Source: Agilicoccus flavus (lineage in GTDB: Bacteria > Actinomycetota > Actinomycetes > Actinomycetales > Dermatophilaceae). Taken from it: a DNA stretch of 64,000 nucleotides. Location of the stretch: the NCBI RefSeq assembly GCF_014857905.1, contig NZ_JACYXE010000002.1, forward strand, positions 248,001 through 312,000. The letters run 5' to 3'. The position numbers and the translations under genes are program-made. The notes beneath the pieces are model-generated. The model saw nothing but the letters and a program-made list of their open reading frames with translations. It was not told the origin of the DNA and ran no database searches. Positions 32,959 through 36,138 of the stretch are shown here, one piece after another; the first letter of the stretch is position 1, and each line of letters starts with the position of its first letter.

Positions 32959-33886
32959 GCTGCCCGAGGTCGAGGTCGTCCGGGCGGGCGTCGCCCGCCA
33001 CGTCACCGGCGCGACGCTCGGCGGCGTCGAGATCCTCGGCCGGCGCGTGGCCCGCCGCCACCTCCTCGGGAACGCCGACCTCACAGCCCGCCTGCTGGGC
33101 CGCGAGGTGCAGGCCGTGCGCCGCCGCGGGAAGTACCTGTGGCTCGACCTCTCGCCCGCGCCGGCCCCCGAGGCGCTCGTCGTCCACCTCGGCATGAGCG
33201 GCCAGCTCCTCGTCGCGGACGCCGACCGGTCGCGAGCCCGCCACCAGCACGCGACGTTCGACCTCGTCGGGGGCGCCGCGGGCGCCGGACGTCAGCTCCG
33301 GTTCGTCGACCAGCGCACGTTCGGGGGCCTGGCCCTCGTCGACGTCGTGCCCGACCCGTTCGCGCCCACCGGGTCGCCCGCGACGTCCGGCACCGGGGTA
33401 GCCGCGCGGGACGGCGCGGGCCGGCCGCTCGTGCCCGCGACCATCGCCCACATCGCGCCCGACCCGTTCGAGCCGGCGTTCGACCCCGACCGCGTCCAGG
33501 CCCTGCTGCGGCGGCGGCAGAGCGCGGTGAAGCGGTCGCTGCTCGACCAGGGCCTCGTCTCCGGGATCGGCAACATCTACGCGGACGAGGCCCTCTGGCG
33601 CGCCCGCCTCCACGGCGAGCGCCTCGGCTCCGGCCTGCCGCGGGCCCGCGTCCTCGAGCTCCTCGACCACGCCCGGGACGTCATGGGGGAGGCGCTGGAG
33701 GCGGGCGGGACCAGCTTCGACGCCCTCTACGTCGACGTCGACGGCGAGTCGGGATACTTCGCCCGGAGCCTGAATGCCTACGGACTCGCCGGGCACCCGT
33801 GCACGCGCTGCGGCACCCCCATCGTCAGGGAGCGATTCATGAACCGCTCGAGCTACTTCTGCCCGGCCTGCCAGCGAAGACGGTAG
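32951..33886 (+). CDS. mutM: Formamidopyrimidine-DNA glycosylase
   Basis: A 311-residue bifunctional glycosylase/AP lyase that removes 8-oxoguanine. After the start Met the mature chain begins PELPEVEVV, with catalytic Pro and Glu. The Lys of [10 protein letters not shown], the helix-two-turn-helix [20 protein letters not shown], and the C-terminal zinc finger (CTRCGTPI ... CPACQRRR) are all present. A loop around residues 90-150 is somewhat longer than usual ([23 protein letters not shown]). Confidence 0.96.
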
Positions 33887-34073
33887 ATGGGCGGCCGGTA
33901 TCACGCAGGCCGATAGCGTGGCGTCGCCCGACCGGTGGCACACCGATGTAGGGCGAGCACCGCGCATTCTGGACTCCGGCGGTCCTGCTCGGGCGCCGGA
34001 GCCACAGCGAAACAGACAGGCGCTCCCGGAGCTGATCGGTCCTGGTGTCCCGAGATCGTGCTGGGGTTGTTGC

Positions 34074-35078
34074 TCAGCCGAGGTGCCGGCGCCAGAACGG
34101 GTCGTCGGACCATGAGTCGGGAACACCCATGCCGCTCAGATTCATCGGCGGACGCGTGGCGATCAGTTCGTGGAGCCGACGTGCCCAGCTGCTGCGCGGC
34201 GAGACCGAATCGAGCACAGACTGCAGTGACACGAGCACGGGGTAGAGGCGCTTCCTCGACCGGTCGGGGAGGGCGTCCGTGCCCGCCAGCCACGAGACCG
34301 TCGGAGAGGTCGGGATCGCCGGGTAGACGCCGAGCCCGACGTTCCACAGCCGTCCGTGGTGCGCGCAGACATTCCTCACCCGCACGAAGGTCTGGAGCCA
34401 GGATTCGAGGATCGTTGCAGTGAGGCCGACACTCCTGGCGACGGCGGTTCGGTCGGCGCGTTCGCCCAGGTTGCGGTACACGCCGGCCAGCTGTCCGATC
34501 GTCAAGGTCTCGACCATGAGCCAGGACGGCGGCAGCTCGGGCGAGGCGTAGGTGGTCAGGTAGTGCTCGAGGGCGGAGCGGTGGACCAGCGAGTCCTCGC
34601 CGGCGTCCGGTGTCCTGCGCAGCTGCTCGTCGCAGGTGTCTCGGACGATCTTGAGGAGTCCGGAGTGCTTGCCTCGGTCGCCGAAGTGCCGGGTGTCCAC
34701 GTACCAGTGGGAGTCGTCGTACGTCGTCGACATGTGATCGGTGAGCGCCGCACGAACGGCGACCTCGACCCGCTCGAGGGCGTCCATGACCAACAGCCGC
34801 AGAGCGCGGTCGAAGACGTAGAGGTCGAGCACATCGTCGAACGTCGTACCGTTGCGGAACACGTGGTCGGGCTGACCCTGCTGGAAGGGAATCGTGTAGG
34901 GCGAGAGACGGTAGTAGCCGATGTGGCGCAAGTACCGCGCGGCCCGCTCGGGCTCTGGGACGATCAGACCACGTTCGGACAGGCGATCGACGAGCTCGTC
35001 CAGACCCAGCGGCGGCTTGTTGTAGTTCTGTGAGCCGCGCGAACGCATTGGCCGAGGCGTGCGCCGGGGTGGGGCCAT
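34074..35078 (-). CDS. Abi_2-family abortive-infection protein (AbiD/F-like)
   Basis: A 334-residue protein of the Abi_2 (AbiD/AbiF) phage-defence family. Landmarks are QNYNKPPLGLDELVDRLSER, RYLRHIGYYRLSPYTIPFQ, the YVFDRALRLLVMDALERVEV helix, and near residue 240 RNVCAHHGRLWN, an Rx4H motif as in HEPN ribonucleases. ATG 35078 is chosen because GGAGGAG lies 5-6 bases upstream. It is a lone, less GC-rich gene inserted in the mutM-acyP-smc region, suggesting gain as a defence cassette. A promoter and short terminated RNA lie just upstream. Target and trigger are unknown. Confidence 0.88.
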   Translation of the reverse strand: MAPPRRTPRPMRSRGSQNYNKPPLGLDELVDRLSERGLIVPEPERAARYLRHIGYYRLSPYTIPFQQGQPDHVFRNGTTFDDVLDLYVFDRALRLLVMDALERVEVAVRAALTDHMSTTYDDSHWYVDTRHFGDRGKHSGLLKIVRDTCDEQLRRTPDAGEDSLVHRSALEHYLTTYASPELPPSWLMVETLTIGQLAGVYRNLGERADRTAVARSVGLTATILESWLQTFVRVRNVCAHHGRLWNVGLGVYPAIPTSPTVSWLAGTDALPDRSRKRLYPVLVSLQSVLDSVSPRSSWARRLHELIATRPPMNLSGMGVPDSWSDDPFWRRHLG

Positions 35079-35103
35079 GTGTGCTCCTCCCGGCACGGGC
35101 GCA

Positions 35104-35151
35104 GAAAAAATCCCCCAAGTGCGCATCGTCGAGAGGCGTGGGGGATGTGGT
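35104..35151 (-). ncRNA. Putative short RNA upstream of Abi gene, ending in a terminator
   Basis: On the minus strand a -10-like TAATCT (35163-35158) is followed by about 48 bases ending in the hairpin ATCCCCCA / TGGGGGAT (35146-35139 and 35117-35110) and a run of six T. The Abi ribosome site and ATG begin only 10-26 bases later. The order promoter, short RNA, leaky terminator, toxin gene is that of type III toxin-antitoxin loci, and conserved abiF RNAs are known upstream of Abi_2 genes. The exact ends are inferred. Confidence 0.55.
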
Positions 35152-35157
35152 CCGCCC

Positions 35158-35183
35158 AGATTAGCACGGTCCGCGCCTGGACC
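35158..35183 (-). promoter_or_regulatory. Promoter and inverted repeat of the Abi locus
   Basis: The -10 box TAATCT (35163-35158) is preceded by TGC. An inverted repeat GGTCC-N6-GGACC occupies 35168-35183, in the spacer/-35 area, and could be an operator. No good -35 hexamer is visible. Confidence 0.45.
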
Positions 35184-35472
35184 ATCAGTGACGGGAGAGT
35201 GACGAGCCGGGGTCGAGTTGCTTCAGGGACAGTGGTCGGGCCGGTCGGCTCCGACGCAGCGGCGCTGCAGGGCGGGTCTTCTTGTGCGGCGATGCTCCGG
35301 CTGCCCGTGCGCGGTGCGGCGCGACGATGTGGCGCGAGGCCGATCTCCTGAGCGATCGGTGCGTCCGTCGGCGCGCCTCCACGGTCCGCCACGGGACATT
35401 CACGCGGCGTTCATGCCCTCGGCGCGCCCAGGCCGCCGCGGTCGCGCACCGTGGGGCGGGGACGGAGGAGAC
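35184..35472. other. Intergenic region before the unrecognised gene at 35473
   Basis: About 290 bases with no supported gene. GGAGGAG at 35464-35470 is the ribosome site of the next gene. No clear promoter box is seen. Confidence 0.4.
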
Positions 35473-36138
35473 ATGGTCATGACGGGGACCCGGGTGGTCG
35501 GGCTCGACCTGGGGGTGACGGACGGTGTGAGCGCCGACGCCATCGCGTCGCAGCTCGCGTCCCAGGCGCGGGCTCAGGGCGCGAGCGCCGCACGCCTCGT
35601 CGTCGGAGTACATCGGGTCCTGGGGGCCGGGCCGGCCGACCCCACGCTGCCGGGGACCGGCCACCTCGCCCTCTCGCTGCGCGCCGACGACCTCGACGAC
35701 GAGCAGGTGTGGGCGGTGGCGTCGAAGGTGGCCGCGCGCGTGTTGGGCGAGCAGCCGGACCGCGGCGCCCTCGTGCTCGGCCGCCGACGCAGCGGGCCCC
35801 GGCCGCTGCAGCGATGCGCGGAGGCGGCGGCCCGCGAGCAGACCGATCGCCTCGCCGGCCGGGCCGTCGCGTTCCCCGGCGACGGCCTCGTCGGCGCGGT
35901 CCAGGTGGGGGACCTCACGAGCGGCACGGTCATCGACGAGGTGCTGGATCTTGCGGGTTCCGGACCCCGTGCGGACGACCTCGTGCTGCTCGCCGGGCGC
36001 GCGCGGCCGCGCTGGCAGTTCGGCTCCCTCGTCCTGCACGTGCTGCCCGCCCCGGGCGCGGGTGACGGGGCCGTGTACGTCCCGGTGGAGACGATGCGGA
36101 CCGGCCCGGTCGCGTCGGAGGCCGGGCCCGCTGCCTAG
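35473..36138 (+). CDS. Conserved-looking protein of unknown function
   Basis: A 221-residue, probably cytoplasmic protein that I do not recognise. It has no signal peptide or membrane segment. It begins VMTGTRVVGLDLGVTDGVSA and alternates hydrophobic strands and helices (TGHLALSLRADDLDDEQVWA; AVQVGDLTSGTVIDEVLDLA), so it looks like a folded alpha/beta protein. ATG 35473 follows GGAGGAG by 2 bases; the ATG two codons later, with better spacing, may be used. It ends 9 bases before acyP and is probably cotranscribed with it. Confidence 0.6.
   Translation: MVMTGTRVVGLDLGVTDGVSADAIASQLASQARAQGASAARLVVGVHRVLGAGPADPTLPGTGHLALSLRADDLDDEQVWAVASKVAARVLGEQPDRGALVLGRRRSGPRPLQRCAEAAAREQTDRLAGRAVAFPGDGLVGAVQVGDLTSGTVIDEVLDLAGSGPRADDLVLLAGRARPRWQFGSLVLHVLPAPGAGDGAVYVPVETMRTGPVASEAGPAA

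Follow-up and report, generated by a model that had tools for sequence, protein, structure and literature searches.

An AbiF toxin gene behind a single abiF RNA hairpin, and stand-alone abiF RNAs of phages as candidate decoys

The window, by which we mean the whole 64-kb stretch of DNA that was analyzed, carries a locus that is very probably (about 0.9 by our estimate) an AbiF/abiF RNA toxin-antitoxin module, an abortive-infection system of a known kind whose function we read from its homologues. The locus has a promoter element, a hairpin, a T-tract and a gene with its catalytic motif; both the protein and the RNA are members of known families, and the two are constantly linked in relatives (Table 1). 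It is a clean, minimal member of its kind, in which one hairpin is best read, from its sequence and position, as both antitoxin and terminator. An RNA-antitoxin locus had been proposed in the first-pass annotation, and this was well guessed; a homologous system has been shown by experiment to be an RNA-antitoxin module (PMC12373285). A new lead comes from phages, outside the window: their stand-alone abiF RNAs are candidate decoys against host AbiF.

Table 1. Features of the AbiF/abiF RNA locus in the window
Feature	Position	Strand	Basis or remark
AbiF/Abi_2 toxin gene, 334 aa	34074..35078	minus	ATG at 35078; ORF end 34074
HEPN R-x4-H motif RNVCAH, R235-H240	34359..34376	minus	intact
Shine-Dalgarno GGAGGAG	35084..35090	minus	sequence
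T-tract, terminator-like, six T	35105..35110	minus	first T = last stem base
abiF RNA hairpin	35110..35146	minus	Rfam RF03085 and fold
Outer stem, ATCCCCC / GGGGGAT	35146-35140 / 35116-35110	minus	sequence
Inner stem, CGC / GCG	35138-35136 / 35124-35122	minus	sequence
Extended -10 element TGC-TAATCT	35158..35166	minus	sequence; 11 nt before hairpin
Inverted repeat GGTCC-N6-GGACC	35168..35183	minus	present; probably not functional

The encoded protein matched Pfam PF07751 (Abi_2) at E 4.1e-51, passing the cut-off, and the PADLOC AbiD profile at E 9.5e-61. Abi_2 was the sole family matched, with no match to a ToxN-type fold, and a genome-wide search found no Abi_2 gene elsewhere in the genome of the window. 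AbiF is widespread, and the Abi_2/AbiF family is thought to be ancestral to Cas13. Residues 19-330, nearly the whole length of the protein, aligned with PDB 8vz6 (E 2.8e-49), which a review describes as the PbAbiF toxin-RNA complex (PMC12737573). The RNVCAH sequence, taken in the first-pass annotation for an Rx4H HEPN-like motif, bears this out: its R, N, A and H, together with the H that follows, are invariant in 43 of 43 aligned relatives, and it aligns with RNSCCHH of 8vz6. The HEPN motif of PbAbiF is R210/H215, and R202/H207 mutants of the C. difficile AbiF lose toxicity (PMC12373285).

Read on the minus strand, the hairpin runs ATCCCCC, A, CGC, the loop CTCTCGACGAT, GCG, CACTT and GGGGGAT, and ends 31 nt ahead of the Abi_2 start on the same strand. 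Searching the hairpin region with the Rfam abiF model, as had been suggested, gave a match to RF03085 (abiF RNA) at 35145-35110 with 42.0 bits, above the gathering score of 37. This was the one match in the whole 64-kb window, and there were no repeats. The predicted fold has -17.5 kcal/mol against a mean of -9 for shuffled sequences (z -3.8), and since the gathering score is passed as well, the hairpin is not a chance structure. We place the start of the RNA near 35151, about 7 nt past the -10 box, from which the RNA would be ∼47-49 nt long and almost all hairpin. The earlier description of about 48 bases of RNA followed by a hairpin treats as two parts what is one and the same hairpin. The same annotation held the RNA-antitoxin, its loop and its arms to be undescribed and specific to this locus. 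Although the layout is as it described, this view is refuted by the RF03085 match above the gathering score and by near-identical RNAs in many actinobacterial genera; the family consensus is matched, and the bulge in the window is one nucleotide shorter, with nothing else of note.

Conservation was assessed in relatives selected by protein. A scan of contigs gave 49 loci, and the upstream DNA was examined in 46 of these, a comparison that the first-pass annotation had also called for. The hairpin was found, nearly letter for letter, upstream of the gene in 39 of the 46, including those many actinobacterial genera, whereas the DNA further upstream, beyond the hairpin region, mostly showed no likeness by eye. 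All 39 hairpin-bearing relatives have TAnnnT ending 11-12 nt ahead of the hairpin, and 32 of them have the extended box TGnTAnnnT. The gene's own promoter, predicted at first reading, is supported as a conserved sequence element. The inverted repeat GGTCC-N6-GGACC, noted in that reading together with the -10 box, is indeed there; being absent from the upstream regions of the relatives, it is probably a chance feature, and we rejected it as an operator.

The T-tract also holds throughout, with at least four T among the six nucleotides counted from the last stem base in 39/39 hairpin-bearing relatives. The earlier claim of a short structured RNA ending in a terminator-like hairpin is supported. 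Placed directly after the hairpin, such a tract is what a plain intrinsic terminator would have, and the hairpin could in principle be a cis-only attenuator of the abiF mRNA from which no free RNA neutralizes the protein. We consider this very improbable. A terminator requires no fixed loop, yet the abiF loop is conserved across phyla and forms the core of RF03085; the C. difficile RNA binds AbiF and works in trans (PMC12373285); and the loop also occurs in phages in which, as described below, no abiF gene was found for it to attenuate.

The remaining 7 of the 46 relatives lack this form of the hairpin. Two of them, both Zoogloea (L093, L094), have a variant hairpin, and L095 is a further case. 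In the other four, from Tessaracoccus/Arachnia (L085, L087, L089, L090), Abi_2 lies close behind the end of an argF-like gene with no abiF hairpin upstream, which means that an abiF RNA is not a requirement throughout the Abi_2 family. When the search started from the RNA, 19 of the 28 RF03085 matches in actinobacteria and 14 of 22 in the class of Zoogloea were followed on their own strand by an Abi_2 start at a distance of 49-110 nt, and some bacterial abiF RNAs were orphans. Two side observations concern such bacterial loci. On plasmids of Acinetobacter and Pseudoalteromonas (L250, L319), Abi_2 sits amid restriction-modification genes with abiF-like hairpins of longer loop upstream; in two actinobacterial genomes (L331, L332), orphan abiF-like RNAs lie ∼10 nt or less from a tRNA gene, perhaps in prophage.

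The closest functional model is AbiF/RCd22 of the C. difficile phi027 prophage (PMC12373285). Common to that system and the window are an Abi_2 HEPN toxin with R-x4-H and an upstream abiF RNA (RF03085); a promoter shared with the toxin and a terminator ahead of the gene, as in C. difficile, are predicted for the window. In C. difficile, a single promoter drives RCd22 together with abiF, most transcripts end at the terminator that precedes abiF, and RCd22 neutralizes AbiF in cis and in trans through direct binding (PMC12373285). The window shows these parts again, more compactly arranged, and we infer the same mechanism for it. A single promoter would yield a ∼47-nt RNA consisting of one abiF hairpin with a U-tract end. 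Most transcripts would stop at the U-tract and supply free antitoxin RNA, and, judging from the studied homologues, read-through would extend into the gene and give the message for AbiF, a HEPN RNase that the abiF RNA would bind and keep inactive. If type III systems in general are a guide, phage infection would disturb host transcription or RNA stability and so free AbiF, which, with the toxicity and RNase activity of its homologues, would then cleave cellular RNA and halt growth.

The two systems also differ. RCd22 has two abiF motifs, is ∼98-132 nt long and has a separate terminator, whereas the window has one motif in ∼47 nt and its hairpin would also be the terminator. Since this single motif runs by its own stem into the T-tract, both the dose of RNA and the way transcription ends could be unlike those of RCd22. 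In addition, the RCd22 locus lies in a prophage lysis module, and that of the window is chromosomal. PbAbiF/AbiFr (8vz6; Zilberzwige-Tal et al. 2025) is likened here by protein and, to the extent that its source is accessible, shares full-length protein similarity, the HEPN motif and an upstream ncRNA with the window; a review likewise reports it as an RNA-antitoxin module (PMC12737573). In the type III systems ToxIN, CptIN and TenpIN, too, an endoRNase toxin is preceded by an RNA antitoxin, and a terminator separates the two, as the T-tract would in the window; theirs, however, are tandem RNA repeats and a ToxN fold, and the window has a HEPN toxin and no repeats.

We found abiF RNAs standing alone in phages (L301, L303-L306, L308-L311, L355-L358) and in viral contigs (among L127-L246, L359-L361 and L363). 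A pattern for the loop only, GCCTCTCNACGATGC, with the stem left unspecified, returned at least 120 stretches from viral contigs. Among the 120 stretches listed, 87-89 had at least 6 of the 7 outer-stem pairs, compared with 0/50 for the reversed loop pattern. When the arms of the 120 listed stretches were shuffled, a mean of 33 and at most 44 had at least 6 pairs, compared with 89 for the real arms; shuffled arms often pair too, as the arms share a C-rich/G-rich make-up. In 65 distinct structured cases among the matches listed, each position of the outer stem showed several kinds of Watson-Crick pair, and most inner pairs were CG, TA or AT. Phage abiF stems covary in unrelated phages while the loop stays fixed. 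Structured hairpins fell within ORFs of at least 80 aa in 28 of the 86 cases listed, whereas random positions drawn from these loci did so in 75% of cases.

A blastn search with one consensus hairpin returned 73 phage records, of which 53 were mycobacteriophages, and 9 of 11 fetched phage loci passed the RF03085 gathering score: Acinetobacter phage Acj61 (58.0 bits), Synechococcus phage S-CREM1 (52.2), Aeromonas phage PZL-Ah8 (50.1), Salicola phage CGphi29 (50.1), Mycobacterium phages Lolly9 (45.3), Bromden (40.5) and Baka (39.7), ctMEh928 (40.0) and Rhizobium phage RHEph21 (38.0). Arthrobacter phage Mimi, with 33 bits, is under the gathering score and was not counted as firm. A match in Rhodococcus phage ChewyVIII was put down to chance; it lies inside coding sequence and has no RF03085 match.

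Whole-record searches for the toxin, Abi_2 (PF07751), covered 100 viral records that had been chosen for their abiF motif, and 99 of these gave no match. By batch, PF07751 had no match among 50 viral records or among ten deposited phage genomes, and matched one of another 40 viral records; since many of the viral records are fragments, the absence is weaker evidence there than in the ten phage genomes. In the sole positive record (L362/G1004), the abiF RNA lies just upstream of Abi_2, which indicates that the search detects the toxin-RNA pair when it is present. An iterated profile likewise found neither Abi_2 nor a fragment of it in those viral and phage loci to which it was applied. As an observation on the bacterial side, a prophage in genome G134 (L312:9400) has an orphan abiF RNA between methyltransferase/RecT and terminase/portal/protease genes, and G134 gave no Abi_2 match.

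Phage copies can be identical to toxin-linked, host-type RNAs. Two toxin-linked forms are conspicuous in actinobacteria, that of the window (ATCCCCC ... CACTT GGGGGAT) and a second (CCCTCCC ... CAAAT GGGAGGG GCC; L003, L012, L044, L247, L325). The 37-nt core of the window is unchanged in viral contig L359, which has terminase and polymerase-exonuclease genes. The window form also occurs in two more contigs, L231 and L360, in each of them behind a promoter-like box at a comparable distance; the contig of L231 has genes for DnaB, an exonuclease, a methyltransferase and an endolysin. Mycobacteriophage LittleE has a 40-nt core identical to the toxin-linked RNA of L362. That the phage RNA type tracks the antitoxin type of the host is suggestive only, owing to the few independent phage lineages.

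Taken together, the absence of the toxin gene, the fixed loop with a covarying stem, the identity with host-type RNAs and a frequent position in tRNA clusters make it rather probable, in our judgment, that several unrelated phage lineages carry stand-alone abiF RNAs as decoys that would hold host AbiF inactive during infection, with the type of copy following the host antitoxin. Analogy points the same way: pseudo-ToxI of phage PhiTE (PMC3475682) and the Racr RNA anti-CRISPRs (PMC10651486) are also stand-alone phage copies of a host defence RNA. They involve another RNA and another target.

The phage RNAs could, instead of being decoys, be what is left of AbiF modules since lost, or they could serve in tRNA processing or as ordinary terminators. 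About a third of the structured cases among the matches listed (24/76) have a tRNA gene within 300 bp, always on the same strand, compared with 0/50 for the reversed-pattern control, and tRNA genes lie within ∼300 bp of the abiF RNA in Baka, S-CREM1, RHEph21, Lolly9 and Bromden. Together with the orphan abiF RNAs of bacteria, this lends such origins some weight. We nevertheless regard them as the less likely reading, given that neither Abi_2 (99 of 100 viral records) nor, in the viral loci searched with the iterated profile, a fragment of it was found, that pairing is kept in varying stems around a fixed loop in unrelated phages, that LittleE and Baka keep the hairpin between flanks that are wholly different on both sides, and that many copies lie far from tRNAs (e.g., L304-L306, L359, L361). 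Cyanophage S-CREM1 has an annotated abiF sRNA which, in the accessible part of the account, is called conserved and likely functional in infection (PMC9964418); that part does not connect it with a counter to AbiF. A full-text literature search, within the texts it covered, likewise returned no claim that abiF RNA is a phage counter to AbiF, and an earlier report is possible in the 2025 AbiF structural paper. The phage RNAs are a strong comparative lead. If the decoy reading is true, it would amount to an RNA-based phage counter-defence against AbiF, directly testable with M. smegmatis phages that bear stand-alone abiF RNAs.

Lastly, we considered the genomic site. In the window, the AbiF gene is convergent to mutM and lies between mutM and acyP/smc (33886-35473). 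Six more loci, from different genera, have AbiF next to mutM in convergent orientation (L055, L056, L060, L061, L078, L086), but most loci do not, and in several relatives mutM leads directly on to acyP or smc and AbiF is missing from the site (L098, L109, L113, L119, L125). With seven AbiF-mutM loci in different genera and relatives in which the site is empty, it looks as though AbiF came repeatedly to one insertion site beside mutM. Two of these loci, L055 and L056, have the upstream 190 nt in common, yet their mutM genes differ.
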